Shown here in pieces: positions 7,294 to 36,960 of a stretch of 64,000 nucleotides of DNA. The translations under genes were made by a program, and so were the position numbers. The first letter of the stretch is position 1; each line of letters opens with the position of its first letter. The stretch spans positions 1 to 64,000 of the forward strand of contig NZ_WSZK01000010.1 of NCBI RefSeq assembly GCF_009791395.1, given 5' to 3'. The notes beneath the pieces are model-generated. The model worked only from the letters and a program-made list of their open reading frames with translations. It had not been told where the DNA came from and ran no database searches. Origin of the DNA: Halomarina oriensis (GTDB lineage: Archaea > Halobacteriota > Halobacteria > Halobacteriales > Haloarculaceae).

Positions 7294-7773
7294 ATGTTCA
7301 CCGTCGACGCCATCCTCACCACCGACGCGTCGGGCGTGGAACTCACCGCTGAGGAGTTCCAAGCGGCGTCCGCAGAGCACCCACCGCTGTTCGACCTCTG
7401 GGTTCGGAACGTGGGCGAGGACACCATCTACTTCTATGGAGGGTACACTTCACCACTGAGCCAGTTCGTCGCGGAGGACCCTGAACAGTCCCGTCAGCTC
7501 ATCGTCTTCCCGACCGGGCTGAACAGCCAACTCCCCGTGATTCCCCCAACCCCGACGGATGAGGTGTGGGTCGCAGACCATCGGCTGTTCTACTACGAGA
7601 CGAGACTCCAGACTAGACTCCGTCCCGGTGAGTCGTTCAGTCGCGAGTATGCGATACTCGTCGAGGAACCCACGGATGGTGGGTACCCACCGGGCCGATA
7701 CACCGTCACAGATGACGGTATCGAGGTCGACGATGCCCCGGCAACTGTTACGGTCACGATTACCGTCTCCTGA
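7294..7773 (+). CDS. Beta-rich protein, paralogue 1 of 3
   Basis: 159 aa from ATG 7294; upstream residues in frame look non-coding. It aligns along its whole length with the protein at 9112-9615 and less closely with that at 8485-9009. Shared features are a PPLxxLxVRN strand, GG near PLSQ, RQLIVFPTGLN versus RRIIVFPTVLN, REYAIL, GGYPPGRY versus DGYPPGQY, and a terminal TVTVTITV strand. The alternating pattern suggests an immunoglobulin-like sandwich. There is no signal peptide, so it may stay in the cytoplasm. No function can be given. Confidence 0.6.
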   Translation: MFTVDAILTTDASGVELTAEEFQAASAEHPPLFDLWVRNVGEDTIYFYGGYTSPLSQFVAEDPEQSRQLIVFPTGLNSQLPVIPPTPTDEVWVADHRLFYYETRLQTRLRPGESFSREYAILVEEPTDGGYPPGRYTVTDDGIEVDDAPATVTVTITVS

Positions 7774-7878
7774 CCACTCGCCCCCGATTCAGGCAATTAT
7801 CGAACTCATCCACGAGTGTATCAACGAGCGAGTTGACCAATGAGAACGATATTGGTGGGACGCCTTCAATAACGGAAT

Positions 7879-8451
7879 ATGAATCGCCGCCAGTTTCTCG
7901 GGGTCACTGTAGGACTCCTCGTACCAGTCACGGGGTGTCTCATTGGCGAGTCGAGTCCGCCGTCAAATGGGACGACCCCGGGCCGCACGAGCGGCGATAC
8001 ACACATGACCGACTCTGAGCTAGCACCTGCCATCGCTGCCCACCAATTCCGGGTCTTGGACTCTGCCGACGGGTACTCCGGGCCGACGTTCTCGTCGGTC
8101 GATACGGCCAACCATGCGGCGAAGGTACGCTTTCAACCGGCGTCGAATCGAATCGTGGTCGAAGGGTGGATGCACAGCGGGTCACGGTCGTGTCGAACGA
8201 CAATACTGGACACCGTGGAGTACGATGCCGAGTCACGCTCTCTTCAATTGACCATCCTTGACACGTTCGAGGAAGGCTCTGGTGGCTGTACGACCGAGAT
8301 TGACCCCGTTATCTACGAAGCAATCATCACCTTCGAATCTGACTATCCGAAGACCGTCCATATCACGCATCGCGACGAGTTGCAAGACGACGAGACCTAC
8401 AACGGAACGTTCCATAACGAAGCGGCCACCGCGACAGCCAATACGGACTGA
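7879..8451 (+). CDS. Secreted lipoprotein of unknown function
   Basis: 190 aa. MNRRQFLGVTVGLLVPVTGC is a Tat signal with a lipobox; cysteine 20 would be lipidated. A short Ser/Pro/Thr linker precedes a domain with paired cysteines (SRSC near residue 100, GGC near 135) that could form a disulfide. It sits among three paralogous beta-rich proteins and may be expressed with them, but spacing (about 105 bases) allows its own promoter. Confidence 0.7.
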   Translation: MNRRQFLGVTVGLLVPVTGCLIGESSPPSNGTTPGRTSGDTHMTDSELAPAIAAHQFRVLDSADGYSGPTFSSVDTANHAAKVRFQPASNRIVVEGWMHSGSRSCRTTILDTVEYDAESRSLQLTILDTFEEGSGGCTTEIDPVIYEAIITFESDYPKTVHITHRDELQDDETYNGTFHNEAATATANTD

Positions 8452-23553: not shown

Positions 23554-24159
23554 ATGGCACAGTTCGATGACATCGACCGGCGAATCCTCGCGTTCTTGAT
23601 GGAAGACGCACGGCGGTCGTTCCGTGAGATTGCCGACGAGGTCGACCGCTCCGCACCGACCGTCTCGAACCGGGTCGAACGGCTGGAAGAACTGGGTGTT
23701 ATCCGACGGTTCACCGTCGATATCGACCGTTCGGCGCTCTCTGGGACCAACCGATCGTTGCTTACCGTCTCGACAGCACCGCGCACAGCATCCGCTCTCG
23801 GAAGCGAACTTGCTGACCACGATGCTGTCGAACACGTCTTCCGGGGAGTCGGTGGGAAGGTCGTGGCGACAGTCCTGATGAGCTCTTCAGACCTTGAGTA
23901 CCTCCTCAGCGACCTTTCGGAAGAGTTCGACACTGCTGACTGGTCGGTCGAACCGCTCGCCGAATCCAAGTGGCATCCGCAACTCGGTGGAGAAGATGCG
24001 TTCGGCCTGGTCTGCACTATCTGTGGGAACACGATTTCCGAAGGAGGGGAGACCGTCGAGGTCGACAGCGGTGACCGCCATGCTGTCTGCTGTTCGTCGT
24101 GTGCGACGGCAATCTCCGAGCAGTACGAACGACTGGCTGCCGAAGAAGAGACACCGTAG
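23554..24159 (+). CDS. Lrp/AsnC regulator with C-terminal TRASH metal-sensing domain
   Basis: 201 aa. Residues 1-60 are an AsnC-type winged helix (IDRRILAFLMEDARRSFREI, SNRVERLEELGVIRRF), followed by an effector-like domain. The C-terminus CTICGN ... HAVCCSSC is a TRASH motif, known from archaeal CopR/CopT-type copper regulators. Co-transcribed with the DUF4396 gene. A paralogue with the same layout lies at 37063-37653. Confidence 0.8.
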   Translation: MAQFDDIDRRILAFLMEDARRSFREIADEVDRSAPTVSNRVERLEELGVIRRFTVDIDRSALSGTNRSLLTVSTAPRTASALGSELADHDAVEHVFRGVGGKVVATVLMSSSDLEYLLSDLSEEFDTADWSVEPLAESKWHPQLGGEDAFGLVCTICGNTISEGGETVEVDSGDRHAVCCSSCATAISEQYERLAAEEETP

Positions 24160-27081: not shown

Positions 27082-27861
27082 TCACTGGTCTATGTCGACG
27101 TCGAAGGGCGCTGTGATGAGGTGACTGTCCGGTTTCGTCTGTAAGAACACTCGATAGTCGCCGGGCGTCGGAAACGTCACGTCGAACTCGACGACCCCTT
27201 CGCGCTGTGTCTCAGCGCGAGGGTGGACGTGGAGGTATGCGAGGTCACCACGCCGCAGTGCGACGAGATGGCCACGGGCCCCGAGATACGGATCCAAGTC
27301 GGGAATGGTACCATCGGCTCGACGGACGGTGAAGGAGAGTAAAGCCGACTCATCCGCGTCAATTCGGTCGACTTGCCGTTCGATTTCGTAGCCATCGGTC
27401 TTGACGCGAGTTGTCGAGTCCCACGTCTCGTCAACGGCGAACTCGCCTGCAGCGAACAGATCGAGACCGAGCGTCGTCGCTCGGCCATCGATAACGACGT
27501 CGACGAACGCACGATAGACGCCAGGGGATGGGAGCACCAGGCGCTCAGCGTACCACGTTCCGTCGTCGCCCAGCCTGGGGTGGAGATGCTGAAATTCGAT
27601 GAGGTCCCGACGGACGATGATGAGATGACTCAGTTGACCGTGGGAGTCGTCGAACGTATCGATAGGTGTGCCGTCCGCATCGAGGATTCGGAACGCCCAG
27701 TCGACAAGCGTCCCTGGTTCGAACGTCGTGTCGTCGGTGACGAGTTGCAGACCATCCGCGGCGAGTGACAGGCCAGTGGCCGACGAGTGCGGTGGCGACG
27801 TAGGCCGAGCATCTGGTCCATCTGCTGCGTGGTCGTGAGGTGACGAGTGATGATTTCGCAT
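27082..27861 (-). CDS. YtkA-like beta-sandwich protein with His-rich N-terminus
   Basis: 259 aa. The first residues MRNHHSSPHDHAADG could bind metal. Two similar beta domains follow, each with a LxHLIIVRRDL...FQHLHP or LVALRRGDLAYLHVHP block and a (P)TPGxYRxF strand. This HLHP/HVHP pattern is typical of YtkA-like proteins that accompany copper and heavy-metal genes. No signal peptide is visible. Last gene of the sulfur/copper operon (32699-27082). Confidence 0.65.
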   Translation of the reverse strand: MRNHHSSPHDHAADGPDARPTSPPHSSATGLSLAADGLQLVTDDTTFEPGTLVDWAFRILDADGTPIDTFDDSHGQLSHLIIVRRDLIEFQHLHPRLGDDGTWYAERLVLPSPGVYRAFVDVVIDGRATTLGLDLFAAGEFAVDETWDSTTRVKTDGYEIERQVDRIDADESALLSFTVRRADGTIPDLDPYLGARGHLVALRRGDLAYLHVHPRAETQREGVVEFDVTFPTPGDYRVFLQTKPDSHLITAPFDVDIDQ

Positions 27862-27942
27862 ACCATAGAGATAGGCCCGGAGCTATATCTCCAATCTGCG
27901 AGGTCGCCGAGACCACCTTGGCGGTCGATACGTTCGGGCCAC

Positions 27943-28215
27943 TCAAACGGTGTCGTCGGGGGCGTGCTTCGATTGCATCCGTTTGACCTCCTCGGCGAAG
28001 CGTTGCTGAGTCTCAGCTGTATCGACCGACGAGAGGTCATCCTCAGAGACATCTTTCGCCGCAGTCACCGTCGACGTATCGACAGCGTGGACTGAGAGCT
28101 CCTTTCGGTACACGCGCTCTCCCGCAGGAGTGGCGTACTTCAAGATGATGAGGTCCCGGTTGTTGTACCCGCGTTCGACCAGCCAGACCCGAACGGTGTC
28201 CGATTCTTCTGCCAT
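27943..28215 (-). CDS. Small conserved-type protein in the oxidase operon
   Basis: 90 aa from ATG 28215. A beta-hairpin start (TVRVWLVERGYNNRDLIILK YATPAGERVYRKEL split here for clarity) leads to an acidic helix with ETQQRFAEEVKRMQSKHAPD. No motif, no signal. It lies between the multicopper oxidase and the YtkA-like gene with gaps of 57 and 81 bases and is probably in their operon. Confidence 0.6.
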   Translation of the reverse strand: MAEESDTVRVWLVERGYNNRDLIILKYATPAGERVYRKELSVHAVDTSTVTAAKDVSEDDLSSVDTAETQQRFAEEVKRMQSKHAPDDTV

Positions 28216-28272
28216 AGAGTGGTCCACGGTCAGAGGGCAGTTAGGAACTAGCCCCAACTCTCTCACAATCGA

Positions 28273-29718
28273 TTACTCGACGTACTCTATCACACGAGCC
28301 ATCCCTGCATCGAGGTGGTACAGGTTGTGGCAGTGGAACAGCCATCGACCAGGGTTGTCCGCACGGAAGTCCAGCGTCACCTCCCCCATGTGGCCAGGGA
28401 CCATCACGGTATCCTTGATAGCGTCCCCGACCCGGAAGAAGTGACCGTGGAGGTGCATCGGATGGACCACCGGGCTTTGGTTCTCCATGTGAATCCGTAC
28501 GTGCTCGTCGGGATGGATTCGGAGCGGGTCAGCGTCCGGGTAAGCCTGACCGTCGATGGTCCACGTGTACGATTGGCCCCTCCCACGCGAGAGCGTCAGA
28601 TCGAACGTCCGGTCGGGAGTTCCATCGACGCCATCGAGTGGGGTAACCGCTCGAAGGTCTTCGTAGCGCAACCGAGTACCCGAAGAAGACGGCGTCTCTG
28701 GGTTGCGAACGCCATCCAACTGGTCATAGGTCAGGACGGCTCTGGCAGGTGGTTCGTCCCCGTCAAGCGCGTCCGCTTGCACGAACCATGAACCCGGATT
28801 CGTCGCTTCCACCACGGCGTCGTACCGTTCGCCAGCACCGAAGGCAAACGAGTCCACGGCGACCGGATCGACCGGCCGACCATCGGCGTGCGTGACGTTC
28901 AGCTCGTGACCGGTGATACGGACGCCGAAGACCGTCGCACTGGACGCGTTCACGAACCGGAATCGAACGCGGTCACCTTCGGTGACATCGAAGGTCGGTG
29001 GGTCTTCCGGAAGTTGACCGTTGACGAGCAACCCCTCGTAGGGAGGGCGAACGTCGCCCATCATCCCCCCACCCATTCCACCTCCTCCCATCCCTCCGCC
29101 GCCCGCACCCTCATCCGACGGTAGCGTCGGTTCTCCGGGAAGGTAGTCGTCAAAGACGACGACGTAGTCGTAGTCGTACTCGACGTGGGGATCGCGTTCT
29201 TCGACGACGAGCGGACCGAGCAACCCACGATCGAGTTGGAGGCCGACGTGACTGTGATAGAAGTACGTTCCTGCGGGTTCTGCGCGGAACGTGTAGGTGA
29301 ACGAGTCGCTGGAAGCAACCGGCTCCTGCGTTACCTCAGGAACACCGTCGACGGAGTTCGGCACGGGAACGCCGTGCCAGTGAATCGTCGTCTCCGCGTC
29401 GAGGTCGTTGTTCAGTTCGACGCTCAGTACGTCGCCTTCCTGAACCCGTAGCTCGGGGCCGGGGAACTGGCCCTCGTACAGCCACGTCGTCGTGGACTGG
29501 TCGGTAGCTGGCCGAATGGCCCCATCACTCGCAGTGAGGCTGACAGTAGTGTCTGCATCACCCGTGACAGTCGGGCGTGGTGTGACCGCACTCCCATCGG
29601 CATCATCGCCGAATCCCGGTAGTTGGCTGGCACAGCCAGCCAGCCCACCGAGGGTGCTCGCTCCCACCCACTGGAGGAGTCTGCGACGAGAGAGCGACCG
29701 CGGTTCGTCAGGCTGCAC
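28273..29718 (-). CDS. Tat-exported multicopper oxidase
   Basis: 481 aa starting at GTG 29718, which overlaps the upstream gene by 11 bases; a longer frame is only a shadow of that gene. SRRRLLQWVGASTLGGLAGC is a Tat signal with lipobox. All four copper motifs are present: IHWHGVPVPNSVDG (about 112), YFYHSHVG (about 153), HPMHLHGHFF (about 419) and HCHNLYHLDAGM (about 462, with axial Met). A Gly/Met-rich loop near residue 205 (GGGMGGGGMGGGMM) recalls the Met-rich segments of CueO-type cuprous oxidases. Likely oxidises Cu(I) outside the membrane. Confidence 0.9.
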   Translation of the reverse strand: MQPDEPRSLSRRRLLQWVGASTLGGLAGCASQLPGFGDDADGSAVTPRPTVTGDADTTVSLTASDGAIRPATDQSTTTWLYEGQFPGPELRVQEGDVLSVELNNDLDAETTIHWHGVPVPNSVDGVPEVTQEPVASSDSFTYTFRAEPAGTYFYHSHVGLQLDRGLLGPLVVEERDPHVEYDYDYVVVFDDYLPGEPTLPSDEGAGGGGMGGGGMGGGMMGDVRPPYEGLLVNGQLPEDPPTFDVTEGDRVRFRFVNASSATVFGVRITGHELNVTHADGRPVDPVAVDSFAFGAGERYDAVVEATNPGSWFVQADALDGDEPPARAVLTYDQLDGVRNPETPSSSGTRLRYEDLRAVTPLDGVDGTPDRTFDLTLSRGRGQSYTWTIDGQAYPDADPLRIHPDEHVRIHMENQSPVVHPMHLHGHFFRVGDAIKDTVMVPGHMGEVTLDFRADNPGRWLFHCHNLYHLDAGMARVIEYVE

Positions 29719-30856
29719 AGTTGTTCGGTCCGAGTTCGAGCTCTGTCGCCTCACCTTCGTCGTCGACCGTCTCGTTACCGGTGTTGATGGCGATGACTGT
29801 CTCGTAGTTCGGCGGCTTTTCGGGCGTGTCACTGGAGAGTCGCTCAACGAACGACTCACGGTCGAGTCCGAGGAGGTCCAACTCGTCGCGCAAGTCTCCG
29901 AGCCGTGCCAGCAGTGGCTCGCCGGGAGCGCCATTCTCGTAGCGCCCGTCGTTGGTAACGGTGAGGTGTCCGGGGAGTATCTTTGTGTCTTCTGGGAGGT
30001 CGAGAATGGTGTCGTGCAAGGAGTCGTAGAGGAGTCCGGCCCCTCGCGACGCATCGTCCTCACCGAACTGGAGTTCCGTCCGCCCGACCGAGTCGACGAA
30101 CAGCGTGTCGCCGGTCAACAGGAGTTCGCCGTCGACGAGGTAGTTCACCATCTCCGACGTGTGGCCGGGGGTGTGGAGTGTTTCGATCTCGATGTCACCG
30201 AGTTCGATAACGTCGCCGTCGGACAGCGCTTCGTACTCGTATTCGACGCCACGCTCAGTGGCCTTTTGTCCGAGGTGATACGGAACACCGACCTCGTTGG
30301 CGAGCGCCGCACCGCCGGAGATGTGGTCGGCGTGGACATGTGTATCCAGAACCTGCTCGATCGAGAGGCCGGCATCCTGAGCGGCAACTTTGAACTGGTC
30401 GGTCTGTCTGGTCGCGTCGACGACGACGGCCTCGCCCGTCCGTTTTGACCCGACGACGTACCCGAGACAGCCCTTTGCGCGGCGCTGGACCTGCCGGACG
30501 ACGAGGTCGTCGTTCGTCGTTTCGATAGGGGCCACCTCGTAGAGTTTGCTCCAGTCTTCCATGCCACCTGTGACGACAGCTACGTCCTCGTAGCCACGTT
30601 CGTCGAGATCGAACGCGAACGGTGTCGAGGTTAGCGCCTTCCCGCACATCGCGACGATGGGTCGGCTCTCGACCATCGCATCCACCTCCTCGAGTTGGTC
30701 CTCGCTCAGGCCCTCGCGGGGATCGTACGGGACATTATTTGCGTCGGGCACGTGCCACGCCTCGAAGCTCTCCTCGGGGCGGGTGTCGATGAGCGTGAAC
30801 GGTTCGTCGGTGTCAATCTTCTCTGCGAGTTGGCGGGCGGTGATTTTGTTGACCAT
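29708..30856 (-). CDS. Rhodanese/metallo-beta-lactamase fusion (persulfide dioxygenase-like)
   Basis: 382 aa. N-terminal rhodanese domain with LIDTRPEESFEAWHV and the catalytic loop CGKALTS (C71). The second domain begins about residue 118 and has THVHADHISGG (174-179), HTPGHT and LTGDTLFVD, the metal ligands of ETHE1/persulfide-dioxygenase-type hydrolases, then GHLTVTNDGR. Such fusions, usually with the domains in the other order, oxidise sulfane sulfur to sulfite or thiosulfate. Overlaps the oxidase start by 11 bases. Together with the SoxB-like and TauE-type genes it points to sulfur metabolism. Confidence 0.85.
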   Translation of the reverse strand: MVNKITARQLAEKIDTDEPFTLIDTRPEESFEAWHVPDANNVPYDPREGLSEDQLEEVDAMVESRPIVAMCGKALTSTPFAFDLDERGYEDVAVVTGGMEDWSKLYEVAPIETTNDDLVVRQVQRRAKGCLGYVVGSKRTGEAVVVDATRQTDQFKVAAQDAGLSIEQVLDTHVHADHISGGAALANEVGVPYHLGQKATERGVEYEYEALSDGDVIELGDIEIETLHTPGHTSEMVNYLVDGELLLTGDTLFVDSVGRTELQFGEDDASRGAGLLYDSLHDTILDLPEDTKILPGHLTVTNDGRYENGAPGEPLLARLGDLRDELDLLGLDRESFVERLSSDTPEKPPNYETVIAINTGNETVDDEGEATELELGPNNCAA

Positions 30857-30914
30857 CGTTGTTCTTTCGTTTTCGTCGTTCGTCGTCCGATTCCTCGGCG
30901 GCTCTCATCGCTGG

Positions 30915-32699
30915 CTACCGTTTCCGGTTTCGGCCCTCCTCTGGGAAGACATTCCCTCGGGGAATCATCGCCGTCTCGCAGTACGCGTCGCCAGACCGGT
31001 AGTCGACGCCCGGTTGGATGAACGGGTACGGTCCGTCTGCTGGCGTGTTCTGGACGTGACCACCGTCATCGGCGGACTCGACAAGCCCCGTTACCTCGTA
31101 ATCGACGGGTGAGTGCGCATCGAGATACTCGGCGACGATGTCGACCGGTATCGTTCCCTCGTCAATCTCAACGTCTTGGAACGGGAATCCACAGTTACCG
31201 AGGTCTCGCTCGGGGTCGCCAGGTCGACGGTACGTCGCCACCGAGTATGTCTCCTCGGGGTCAACGGGGTCGCCGTTGACGCGCATCTCGACGAGTCGAC
31301 GACCGCGCTTTGCTGTTGGGTCGACGGTCACTTCGACGTTCGAGGAGAAGTTCCTAACGCGACCGTCCTCCTGATTGTATGGATATGGCGTGAAGTTGTC
31401 TTCGAGAAACTCTTCCATGTGACTCGTTAATTGCTGGCCGTACGCGACGCCACGGGCGACGGGGGTCGTCATCGGGAAGAACGTGTACAACTGCTCCAGC
31501 GTGATGTCACCGGCCGGAATCGCCGTCCCGTACCGAAACCCGTGACAGACTGCCAGGTCGGTGTTGAAGTGTGCCTGGAGTGCATCGTTGAACAGCGTGT
31601 TCCACGCGCTCTCGAGGAACGACTGCCGGTAGAGCGGTGTCTTCGTCTGCCCGACGACCGTATCGAGCGGCTGGTCGAGCGTTCCTGCTCCTTGTTCGAA
31701 CTCAGGATCGTCCTCGAAAAACGGTGCTCGGACTGACTCGACCGTCTCCGTCGCCGCCGGGTCGGGGTCGGGGGTGTACTCACCGTCTTCGGTCAGACAG
31801 TAGAGGTGATGACGGAACTGCACGCTCCCGTCACGGACACGGACGTCGACGCGACCGAGTGCCTCACCCATCCCAGACTCGACGACGACCGTCTCGGTCT
31901 CTTCTATGAGGATGGGGACGTACGTGTACTCGTGCGTATGAGCACTGAACATCACGTCGATACTACTGCAGTCCTTGGCGGCCTGGACCATCCAGGGAAG
32001 CCCTATCTCCGTGACCGCGACGACGACGTCCGCTCCGTCCTCGCGCGCTGCCTGTGCGGACTCCTCCAGGAGTGCAGGATGCTTCCCGAATCGGTATTTC
32101 CCCTCGTAGAACGCGGGCGCCATCCGATCGACGTAGATATTCGTCATCCCGACGACGCCGACGGAGAGACCACCGATGTCGAGGAGCCGATACGCATCGT
32201 ACAATCGGCTGTCGGTCTCGTAGTCGTAGAGATTGTTCGCGAGCACAGGCGCGTCGAGGCCGTCCATCAGCTCTAGAAGCTTGCCGTCTTCGGCGGCGTC
32301 GTTCGAGTAATCCCAGTTGCCGGGGACGTAGACGTCGGGTTCGACGTGGTCGTTAATCGGATCGAGCATCGCCCGACCATCGGTGTACGTCGTGGCGGCC
32401 GCACCGTGGAACGTATCGCCGCTCATCACCGTGCACACCTCGTGGTCGGCACGAAGCTGATCGAGTTTGGCAGCCAGCAACGGGATGCCCCCACCGCGTT
32501 TTATCACACGGTCGTCGTCACCGAACTCGAAGTCCGGCGTGGAGGTCGGATTGTCGTAGTAAACCTGGTAGCGGGGCGTCAACTGGCCGTGAAGGTCGCT
32601 GACGTGTGCAAAGACGATATCGGGCTCGTCCCCGTTGTTGTCGACGGATTCGCCACCCAAAGTCCTCCACTCGTCAATAGCTCTCTCACTCCCGCTCAT
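30915..32699 (-). CDS. SoxB/5'-nucleotidase-family metallophosphoesterase-like hydrolase
   Basis: 594 aa. VSDLHGQL (D35, H37) is the first metal motif, GDTFHG the second, GNWDYSND the third and SAHTHEYTYV the last; the C-terminal domain has YGTAIPAGDITLEQLYTFFP. In 5'-nucleotidases the third motif is GNHE/D; the Trp in place of His is like SoxB (GHWE), the thiosulfate-oxidising hydrolase. No signal peptide is visible, unlike periplasmic SoxB, and no SoxYZ genes are seen. First gene of the operon; the rhodanese fusion follows after 58 bases. Confidence 0.75.
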   Translation of the reverse strand: MSGSERAIDEWRTLGGESVDNNGDEPDIVFAHVSDLHGQLTPRYQVYYDNPTSTPDFEFGDDDRVIKRGGGIPLLAAKLDQLRADHEVCTVMSGDTFHGAAATTYTDGRAMLDPINDHVEPDVYVPGNWDYSNDAAEDGKLLELMDGLDAPVLANNLYDYETDSRLYDAYRLLDIGGLSVGVVGMTNIYVDRMAPAFYEGKYRFGKHPALLEESAQAAREDGADVVVAVTEIGLPWMVQAAKDCSSIDVMFSAHTHEYTYVPILIEETETVVVESGMGEALGRVDVRVRDGSVQFRHHLYCLTEDGEYTPDPDPAATETVESVRAPFFEDDPEFEQGAGTLDQPLDTVVGQTKTPLYRQSFLESAWNTLFNDALQAHFNTDLAVCHGFRYGTAIPAGDITLEQLYTFFPMTTPVARGVAYGQQLTSHMEEFLEDNFTPYPYNQEDGRVRNFSSNVEVTVDPTAKRGRRLVEMRVNGDPVDPEETYSVATYRRPGDPERDLGNCGFPFQDVEIDEGTIPVDIVAEYLDAHSPVDYEVTGLVESADDGGHVQNTPADGPYPFIQPGVDYRSGDAYCETAMIPRGNVFPEEGRNRKR

Positions 32700-32987
32700 G
32701 CTCTAGCTACGGGTAGTACGACGCCACCCCATTCATGTGTTGTGGTTGCAATTCCAAACTCACTGTAAAATGACCATTGGCGCCTAAAACGGATTTATAA
32801 CGTCTGTGCATTGCCGGACTCAACAATCACGGCTTGATTTAGTTGGGTAAGAATGCGCGATAGATGCAATTCCAAAGAGTAGGGATGATGTTGAGACACC
32901 TCTGTTAAGCACAAATCGCGTGAATCAGGGAGTCGAACTTCACAGCGTATCGATGTGTGTACTACTCGGGGGACGAGGACCGCACCG

Positions 32988-33773
32988 ATGACGAGCAACT
33001 GGGTGACGACGGGACTGTCTACGTTGGTCATTCTCGTGGCCTCTCTCGTTCACGGTATCGCCGGGTTCGGCTTTGCGCAGGTGTCGATGGGACTGATGCC
33101 GCTGTTCCGGTCGCCATCGAGTGCGTCGATCATCTTCACGGCGACCGCGGTGGTGAGCAACGCGCGTGTCTGGTGGAGCGTGCGTGGGGCGTTCGACTGG
33201 CGAAAGTGGGCCGTCCCCGTCGGTGGCCTCGTCGTCGGGATGCCGTTGGGTATCTACGTCTTCAGCCAGTTCGATGGGGATCAGATGCGCGTCGCTATCG
33301 GTGCCGTCCTCGTTTTGGCGGTCATCGTCGTCGGTGCGACCCAGCAGTCCGAGTTCGTCACGGACTGGATCGAGGCTAAAGACTACCGCCCGGGGAACGC
33401 CATCGGCGCAACGGCCGGTCTTCTCGCCGGCGTCTTCGGCGGGGCCGTCGCCGTCCCAGGCCCACCGATGATCGTCTACGGCGCGTTCATGTCAGCCAGC
33501 GGGTTCTGGAGCGACGAGGAGATGAAGGCGACGTTCACGGCCTTCTTCGGGACCCTCATGCTGTATCGGTTGGGCAGTCTTTCCTACACTGGGGCCGTGA
33601 CGACCCCGCTGCTGGTCGAAGCAACGGTCGCAATTCCGATGGTATTCGTCGGTGCCTGGGCAGGCGTCTACATCTTCGACAACATTCCCGAGCGCGTGTT
33701 TCAGTGGCTCGTCCTCGCACTGCTGACTGTGAACGCGTTCGTCCTACTCTTCACCGCAGTGCCGGAGCTGTGA
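32988..33773 (+). CDS. TauE/SafE-family sulfite/anion exporter
   Basis: 261 aa from ATG 32988. About eight hydrophobic segments. The two TauE repeats are marked by LVHGIAGFGFAQVSMGLMP near the start and AGLLAGVFGGAVAVPGPPM in the middle. The family exports sulfite, sulfoacetate or related anions. Divergent from the SoxB-like operon, with 288 bases between them that should hold both promoters. It would remove sulfite formed by the rhodanese/MBL enzyme. Confidence 0.8.
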   Translation: MTSNWVTTGLSTLVILVASLVHGIAGFGFAQVSMGLMPLFRSPSSASIIFTATAVVSNARVWWSVRGAFDWRKWAVPVGGLVVGMPLGIYVFSQFDGDQMRVAIGAVLVLAVIVVGATQQSEFVTDWIEAKDYRPGNAIGATAGLLAGVFGGAVAVPGPPMIVYGAFMSASGFWSDEEMKATFTAFFGTLMLYRLGSLSYTGAVTTPLLVEATVAIPMVFVGAWAGVYIFDNIPERVFQWLVLALLTVNAFVLLFTAVPEL

Positions 33774-34350: not shown

Positions 34351-36960
34351 CTATCGGCGGAACCACCCGAGGAGCTTGTAGTCGTGGTCGGGGGTGTACG
34401 TCCGGAACAGTAGGCTGTTCGAGAGCACCGAAACGCTGGAGAACGCCATCGCACCCGCCGCGAGCACCGGCTGGAGCAGGCCGAGCGAGGCGAGCGGAAT
34501 CATCGCCGTATTGTAGCCGAGTGCCCAGACGAGGTTCTGTTTGACCTTCGAGAGTGTCGCATCGGAGATACGAATCGCCTTCACGACGTCCACCGGGTCG
34601 TTCCGCATCAACGTGACGTCCGCCGCCTCGATTGCGACGTCCGTCCCCGACCCGATGGCGGTTCCGACGTACGCAACAGCGAGAGCCGGAGCGTCGTTGA
34701 CACCGTCACCGACCATCATCGCCCGACGCCCGTCGTCCTGAATCGACTCGACGGCGTCGGACTTGTCTTCGGGAAGCACCTCTGCCCGGACGTTCTCACG
34801 GGGGATGCCGACCTGCTCGGCAACGGCGTGAGCTGTCCGCTTGTTGTCGCCGGTGATCATCATCACGTCGACACCCCGTTCGTGGAGTTGGGTGATGGCG
34901 TCTTTCGCGCTCTCTTTGACCGTGTCCGCGTTGGCGACCACACCGACGAGTTCCTGCTCGTAGGCGACGAGCATCGCCGTCTTCCCCTCGTTTTCGAGAC
35001 GCTCCATCGTCTCTGACGCGGGAGTGGGATCGATATCGTTGTCACGCAGGAGCTTCCGGTTGCCAACGAGCACCTTGCTGTCGCCGACTGTCGCCTTGAT
35101 TCCGTGGCCCGGAACGTTCTCGAAGTCATCCGGGTCGGTGATGTTGATACCGCGCTCTTCGGCCCCCTCGACGATGGCCTGTGCGAGCGGGTGTTCACTG
35201 CCACTCTCTGCAGTGGCGGCGAGTCGGAGGACGTCTTCTTCTGAAAGCCGGTCCTGAGCGGTGAGTTGGCCGCCATCCGTTGCCGCCTCGCCACCGTCTG
35301 TGACGGGGCCACCATCACCGTCGAACACGACCACGTCGGTCAGTTCCATCGCACCCTCGGTGAGCGTCCCCGTCTTGTCGAAGACGACGGTGTCGACGTC
35401 CTTGGCGCGTTCGAGGATGTCACCGCCTTTGAACAGCACACCGTTCTGCGCACCGATAGTGGTGCCGACCATCGTCGCGGCTGGGGTCGCCAGCCCCAAC
35501 GCGCAGGGACAAGCGATGAGTACCGCACTCGCGAAGACGACGACTGCGAATTCGAAGACTGAAATCGATCCTCCTGCAACTTCGGGGCCACCGGCGACCA
35601 GTCCCCAGAGTGGAAGCGACTGGATGAATCCCGCCAATGCCTCTGGGAACAGATACCAGACGACGCCCCACAGCAGCGCGTTGAAAATGACCGCGGGAAC
35701 GAAGTACGCCGAAATTCGGTCGGCGAGGTTCTGAATCTCTGGCTGACGCGACTGAGCGTCCTTGACCGTCTGGACGATCTGTTGGAGCGCCGTATCGGAC
35801 CCGACCTTCGTCGCTTCGATGAGGAGCACGCCGTTCTCGTTGATGGTCGAGCCGACGACTTCGTCGCCCTCACCCTTCTCGACGGGGACGGATTCGCCGG
35901 TCACCATCGACTCGTCGACCGCCGATTGGCCGTCGACGACTCGGCCGTCGGTGGGGACCTTCTCACCGGGTCGGACCTTTATCCGGTCCCCGACCTCGAC
36001 GTCTTCGAGTGGAATCTCCTGTTCGTTTCCGTCGTCGTCGACGACGGTGGCCGTCTCGGCTTCCATCTCCAGAAGTTTTCGGAGTGCCTCACCAGCCTGT
36101 CCCTTCGAACGAGCTTCGAGGTAGTTCCCGAGCGTGATGAACACGAGGATGAGCGCCGCCGTGTCGAAGTACATCCCGCCAGCGATGAGTCCTGCGAGGA
36201 CGGCGACAGAGTAGACGTACGCCGTACTCGACCCGAGTGCGATGAGTACGTCCATGTTGGCGCGGCCGTTCTTCACGAGTGCCTTGTAGGAGTTCTTGTA
36301 GAACGGCCATCCCAGGATGAGTTGGACGGGCGTTGCGAGGGCGAACTCGACCCACCCAAACTCGACACCGAAGACCGTCTCGGGGACGATTCCGCCACCG
36401 AGTAGGAACTTCTCGACGAGGAAGAAGAGCATAGGCGCCGACAGGGCGGCACCGAACAGTGTCAATCGACGTTGCCGTCGAATCTCCTCTCGCCGAGCGG
36501 CATCGCGGGCGTCCTCGTCCGGACCTCCGTCAGCCGACTCCTCACGTACGGGTGAGTACCCAGCGGCCTCGATGGCGTCGTACAGCGCCTCGATAGACGT
36601 GTCTGCAGGATTGTAGACGACCTGTGCCTCATCCGTGGCGTAGTTGACGGTCGCCTCGACGACGCCCGGTGTCCCTTCGAGTGCAGTCTCGTTCGTCTCG
36701 GCACAGTTCGAACACGTCATATCGGTGATTCCGATGCTCACCGACTCTGAGACCACGCCATACCCGGCGTCGTCGATCGCGTCGTAGATTGCACCGAGCG
36801 ATACCTGATCGGGGTCGTACTCGACCGACCCTTCGTCAGTGGCGAAGTTGACGTTCGCCGTGGAGACACCATCGAGAGATTCGACAGCGTCCTGGACAGA
36901 ACCTGAACAATTCGCACAGGACATCCCCGTGATGGTGAGGTGAGCTGTTCGCTGACTCAT
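34351..36960 (-). CDS. copA: CopA-type Cu(I)-exporting P1B ATPase with two metal-binding domains
   Basis: 869 aa. Two N-terminal heavy-metal domains (GMSCANC with C15/C18; DMTCSNC with C83/C86), then an eight-helix membrane part. The transport motif is CPC in [10 protein letters not shown] (about 483), the phosphorylation site [11 protein letters not shown] (about 528), then TGES in the actuator and [12 protein letters not shown] in the hinge. CPC with two CxxC domains marks Cu(I) (or Ag) export from the cytoplasm. It lies 102 bases downstream of a TRASH-Lrp regulator on the same strand and near a CopZ-like chaperone gene, a standard haloarchaeal copper cluster. Confidence 0.93.

Follow-up and report, generated by a model that had tools for sequence, protein, structure and literature searches.

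Why should a hydrolase publicly annotated as a 5′-nucleotidase be encoded together with a rhodanese-metallo-beta-lactamase (MBL) fusion, a TauE-family exporter, and a multicopper oxidase (MCO)? The question is raised by positions 27082 to 33773 of the window, by which we mean the whole 64,000-nucleotide stretch analyzed here (contig NZ_WSZK01000010.1 of Halomarina oriensis). The source genome is haloarchaeal and close to Halomarina rubra, whose locus L031 is 99% identical. An earlier note on this DNA had read the genes as an operon combining a sulfur part with a copper part, a reading that is partly supported here. We imagine, at about an even chance, that they form a mobile haloarchaeal cassette that disposes of reactive sulfane sulfur and S-sulfonates and that has been recruited into copper-resistance islands. 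The proposal is based on what can be read from sequence, namely, the gene set and order, the protein families, their motifs, the absence of SoxYZ, and the copper neighborhood. The features at its center are as follows.

30915-32699, minus strand: SoxB-like binuclear-metal hydrolase, 594 amino acids (Pfam, TIGR04486, PDB match, motifs, trees).
29708-30856, minus strand: fusion of N-terminal rhodanese and C-terminal MBL, persulfide/sulfur dioxygenase type (Pfam, PDB relatives, motifs).
28273-29718, minus strand: MCO, 481 amino acids, twin-arginine (Tat) lipoprotein (three Cu-oxidase domains, copper-site and Tat motifs).
32988-33773, plus strand: TauE/SafE-family exporter (PF01925).
32700-32987, no strand: divergent intergenic region between tauE and the SoxB-like gene (alignment of intergenic regions).

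Profile searches and motifs recovered, at their coordinates, all of the genes named in the earlier note, including the YtkA-like protein treated below, and the tight packing that it described is real. Only 58 nt separate the SoxB-like gene from the rhodanese-MBL gene, the MCO gene has its GTG start within the rhodanese-MBL gene and overlaps it by 11 nt, and tauE diverges from the SoxB-like gene across a 288-bp gap.

The identity of the hydrolase comes first. It carries the Pfam domains Metallophos and 5_nucleotid_C and scores 203.7 bits against the SoxB profile TIGR04486, for which the equivalog cut-off is 550, compared to 54.5 bits against the UshA profile; its best relative of solved structure in the PDB is SoxB. 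Its motifs are DLH, GD, GNWD, TEIG, AHTH, and FRYGT. Within GNWD (residues 127-130), a Trp stands where nucleotidases have a catalytic His, and FRYGT resembles the RWG motif of SoxB, so that Trp and R[Y/W]G are common to both. The notion that this is an ordinary 5′-nucleotidase or UDP-sugar hydrolase with incidental neighbors would suit the public annotation and the Pfam domains and fold held in common with 5′-nucleotidases. However, GNWD replaces GNHE, R[YF]G replaces GGGIR, and the linkage to TauE and rhodanese-MBL genes is conserved; in our trees, all Trp-motif proteins, SoxB included, fall on one side and the nucleotidases on the other (branch support, 97/95). A true haloarchaeal 5′-nucleotidase (L089:4740-6428), only 28% identical, provides the contrast: it has a Tat signal and the motifs GNHD, SH, and GGGIR, and its gene adjoins nucleoside hydrolase and nucleoside-salvage genes. 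Motifs, tree, and gene context together rule out the ordinary nucleotidase, which we regard as very improbable.

Neither is the protein SoxB proper. The SoxB-like set stands apart from SoxB with support of 97/92 (98/94 in another tree), although the long branches in these trees advise caution. The earlier note had seen no signal peptide, and we found no credible export signal N-terminal to the domain among 31 haloarchaeal sequences, an RR motif occurring only in two over-extended open reading frames. It had also reported no SoxYZ; indeed, neither SoxY nor SoxZ was detected in the genome of the window or in 32 other carriers (0/33), while a control plasmid was positive in the same search. The classical Sox system is therefore ruled out, and the substrate cannot be the one on which classical SoxB acts, in keeping with the suggestion that it may be new. 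Compared to SoxB (TIGR04486; PDB 2wdc), the archaeal protein shares the fold, the Trp for catalytic His, the R[WY]G motif, and the sulfur context; it differs in its subthreshold score, its separate clade, the lack of an export signal and of SoxY/SoxZ, and a Glu at a metal ligand. Judged by its motifs and phylogeny, the hydrolase is of a sulfur type, neither a normal nucleotidase nor SoxB proper.

That Glu deserves attention. The TEIG motif carries Glu231 in place of the usual metal-ligand His (SHNG in SoxB; H217 in UshA). All 31 of 31 haloarchaeal sequences have the Glu, and every bacterial relative examined lacks it, as would be expected if the protein had become metal binding or regulatory, no longer hydrolyzing sulfur esters and leaving the chemistry to the dioxygenase and exporter alone. 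We consider such a loss of catalysis improbable, since every other metal ligand shows strict conservation, as do the Trp and Arg motifs, and Glu is itself able to bind metals. Structure prediction gave a mean pLDDT (the model's confidence score) of only 57.5, and the fold search did no more than confirm the 5′-nucleotidase/SoxB fold; we therefore claim no active-site geometry and place Glu231 at the predicted metal site by alignment alone.

The rhodanese domain of the fusion (PF00581, 49.9 bits) has its catalytic Cys in a conserved CGK[AG]LTS loop, and the dioxygenase motifs THVHADH, HTPGHT, GDTLF, and GRTEL preserve HxHxDH, the second His, the Asp ligands, and GRT[DE]. Its solved relatives, 3tp9, 3r2u, BpPRF (5ve3), and ETHE1 (4chl) among them, are persulfide dioxygenases and fusions. 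TauE scores 81.4 bits against PF01925 (gathering score, 32.6). In the MCO, the three cupredoxin domains PF07732, PF00394, and PF07731 exceed their cut-offs, with type 1, 2, and 3 copper motifs intact (HWHG, HPMHLHG, and HCHxxxHxxxGM, with HSHVG read in the sequence), and a Tat lipoprotein signal (SRRRLLQ...LAGC) precedes them. The Met-rich loop pointed out in the earlier note is a real Met/Gly-rich loop, shared by most other MCO copies whose loop can be read. These features, Tat export, and a nearby CopA ATPase liken the MCO to CopA/CueO-type oxidases; it differs from them in being a lipoprotein from a haloarchaeal subfamily, in its score under the cut-off of the CopA oxidase profile TIGR01480 (272 bits versus 478.95), and in the overlap of its gene with that of a sulfur dioxygenase. 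Because the hydrolase has no export signal and the MCO is a Tat lipoprotein, we predict that hydrolase and dioxygenase act in the cytoplasm and the MCO outside the cell.

Conservation of the group was examined in a sample of 292 haloarchaeal genomes of 77 genera and in a second collection, in which 33 named loci carry the hydrolase. Hydrolase matches occurred in 38 of the 292 genomes and 22 of the 77 genera, the 38 including some fragments and one genome, G031, whose match is really a true nucleotidase. Removal of near-duplicates left 57 loci for comparison, 36 of which form a core clade (at least 76% identity), drawn from many haloarchaeal families. Of the 35 loci of this clade that could be tested, 31 have a divergent tauE, and a whole rhodanese-MBL gene lies downstream in 25 of the 36, usually after 58 to 73 nt. 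The MCO gene is more variable: 11 loci (of 28 testable) have it whole and 4 have a decayed copy, while 13 lack it; in 4 more it runs off the end of the retrieved sequence, and 4 could not be assessed. Independently annotated plasmids show the same 11-nt overlap of the dioxygenase and MCO genes. With these counts across many haloarchaeal families, the grouping of the hydrolase with TauE, rhodanese-MBL, and MCO is not due to chance. The patchy distribution, the plasmid location of many copies, and sister pairs in the tree from different families (L033 with L050 and L036 with L039) indicate horizontal transfer of the cassette. In L036, L042, L046, L051, L060, and L062, the MCO and rhodanese-MBL genes are partly deleted or frameshifted beside a retained tauE/SoxB-like pair, which suggests that the oxidase gene is lost first.

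By its relatives, the hydrolase is part of a wider, mostly uncharacterized family of SoxYZ-independent SoxB-like proteins. The bacterial relatives mostly lack signal peptides and are likewise found in sulfur operons; rhodanese, DsrE, YeeE, thioredoxins, MBL or Dsb proteins, and exporters of the sulfate or TauE type are among their neighbors. Some divergent haloarchaeal members lie with rhodanese-MBL, TauE, and 4Fe-4S/molybdenum oxidoreductase genes, others with DsrE, a class V aminotransferase, rhodanese-MBL, DUF302, and thioredoxin. At L067:9001-19767 and in L082, a divergent SoxB-like gene is clustered with rhodanese-MBL and TauE genes and with those of a large molybdopterin oxidoreductase and a 4Fe-4S dicluster protein, possibly a respiratory sulfur module in haloarchaea.

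Copper genes surround the cassette well beyond the window, and many genera share this placement. Neighbors were tallied in 22 long loci with TauE, as raw counts: a MarR-type regulator was found in 13, a secreted Met/His-rich protein in 12, two SHOCT proteins with Gly/Met repeats in 12 and 9, DUF302 in 11, an ArsP-type permease with a YHS domain in 9, a CopA-like ATPase in 7, a four-helix copper protein and thioredoxin in 6 each, and halocyanin in 4. The CopA-like ATPase gene adjoins the cassette here and lies near it in L035, L038, L052, and L064. The cassette thus sits repeatedly among copper genes in various genera. The link between the sulfur and copper parts drawn in the earlier note holds insofar as it recurs in other genera; it does not extend to every member, as the MCO, though frequent, is dispensable and the YtkA-like gene is lineage specific.

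Could the cassette serve mainly in the use of sulfur compounds, as a supplementary oxidation of thiosulfate or tetrathionate like that of Erythrobacter flavus, its location among copper genes reflecting co-transfer on megaplasmids? The plasmid location of many copies is consistent with this, as are the divergent members described above, whose sulfur neighbors come without the copper set, and one core locus in which a YeeE/DUF6691 pair of the thiosulfate-transporter type lies beside the TauE gene. However, the cassette has no recognizable thiosulfate-oxidizing entry enzyme, the core clade is found within copper genes repeatedly and across genera, and the 11-nt gene overlap is conserved; we therefore think this explanation unlikely, though far from negligible.

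Returning to disposal of sulfane sulfur and S-sulfonates, we imagine the following. In the cytoplasm, the SoxB-like protein would act as a two-metal hydrolase and split sulfate off a small-molecule S-sulfonate or polythionate, used instead of SoxYZ; candidate substrates would be tetrathionate and thiol-S-sulfonates, for instance that of gamma-glutamylcysteine. The rhodanese-persulfide dioxygenase would then oxidize the released persulfide or sulfane sulfur to sulfite, which would exit via TauE. Where present, the exported MCO would oxidize Cu(I) outside the cell. By poisoning thiols and iron-sulfur clusters, copper would generate the sulfur species to be cleared by the cytoplasmic part.

Several considerations weigh against this proposal. 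Substrates vary within the TauE family, and replacement of the metal-ligand His by Glu might alter the chemistry or abolish activity. The MCO is absent or decayed in many loci, several loci retain only the TauE and SoxB-like genes, and in the comparison of 57 loci the most divergent haloarchaeal members (55 to 65% identity) had no recognizable sulfur neighbors. In addition, deletion of two SoxB-like paralogues in E. flavus gave no phenotype (PMC7608252).

The SoxB and sulfur dioxygenase of E. flavus are the nearest studied arrangement and a precedent for the proposal. In E. flavus 21-3, a SoxYZ-independent SoxB is needed for conversion of tetrathionate to zero-valent sulfur, and the rhodanese-MBL sulfur dioxygenases SdoA and SdoB act downstream of it (PMC7608252). 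The SoxB-domain protein there is annotated as a metallophosphatase/5′-nucleotidase, its thiosulfate-induced cluster also holds a rhodanese/MBL sulfur dioxygenase, and tetrathionate is made by the periplasmic cytochrome TsdA (PMC7608252). The two systems, likened here by description, share a SoxB-domain protein without SoxYZ and a rhodanese/MBL dioxygenase; the archaeal one differs in its Glu at the metal position and in its linkage to TauE and copper genes. No TsdA-like gene is present in the cassette, the rest of the genome not having been searched for one. The cst operon of Staphylococcus aureus and operons of the bigR/blh type, which serve in persulfide detoxification, pair a TauE exporter with a dioxygenase-rhodanese fusion, as does the haloarchaeal cassette; in the latter, the rhodanese comes first in the fusion, and a SoxB-like hydrolase and an MCO are added. 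Neither a cst regulator nor SQR is encoded in the cassette, with SQR not sought in the rest of the genome. We found no report of the haloarchaeal cassette in the open-licence literature, nor any there linking an MCO with persulfide dioxygenase and sulfane sulfur.

One can also envision a bolder scheme, a long shot in our estimation, in which archaea oxidize thiosulfate, polythionates, or thiol-S-sulfonates without SoxYZ or cytochrome c. Its basis would be a SoxB-like enzyme of the cytoplasm whose metal site has been remodeled (His to Glu), and copper chemistry (MCO, halocyanin) would stand in for TsdA in the oxidizing step that the latter carries out in bacteria. SoxB-like proteins without SoxYZ are widespread, usually labeled nucleotidases, and hardly studied, and this family offers a conserved, recurrent archaeal case, amenable to expression and marked by a characteristic change in the active site and by recurrent links to copper. 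If the disposal proposal is right, the annotation of a whole clade would be corrected, and copper resistance would be tied to clearance of sulfane sulfur in archaea.

Other genes at or near the locus are as follows.

27943-28215, minus strand: 90-amino-acid protein, family without a match (homologue in L041).
27082-27861, minus strand: two-repeat His-rich protein, weakly YtkA-like (PF13115 subthreshold; L035 alignment).
34351-36960, minus strand: copper-exporting P-type ATPase, CopA-like (TIGR01511/TIGR01525 above cut-off).
23554-24159, plus strand: regulator of the AsnC/Lrp type that ends in a metal-sensing TRASH domain (PF24273) and lies some 3 kb from the operon.

The first two were considered as core members of the cassette and rejected; they are not conserved across loci and are lineage-specific extras. 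The 27082-27861 product is His-rich, as the earlier note said, and has two repeats, and its YtkA label is a subthreshold match (PF13115, 12.6 bits, E value of 0.22). In Halegenticoccus (L035), a homologue with 51% identity is encoded near the same cassette, in an island that holds CopA, Lrp regulator, and YtkA-like homologues. Profile searches gave no family match for the 90-amino-acid protein; in Halorarius litoreus (L041), a 60% homologue of it is encoded next to the same cassette and to the gene of a four-helix copper protein.

In most relatives, the gap between tauE and the SoxB-like gene measures about 280 to 293 bp; a conserved block lies immediately upstream of the SoxB-like start. A common regulatory palindrome, sought there by eye, was present in several relatives and not evident in the window; an inverted repeat, CTTAGG...CCTAAG, was seen in L033, L035, L036, L041, and L050. 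In L033 (gap at 7709-8000), it reads CTTAGGGA-AGTTC-TCCCTAAG, again judged by eye.

The L041 island of Halorarius litoreus holds homologues of both the 90-amino-acid protein and the Lrp-TRASH regulator of the window. Because this regulator homologue, 50% identical, adjoins the same cassette, the protein encoded at 23554-24159 is a candidate copper sensor for it.

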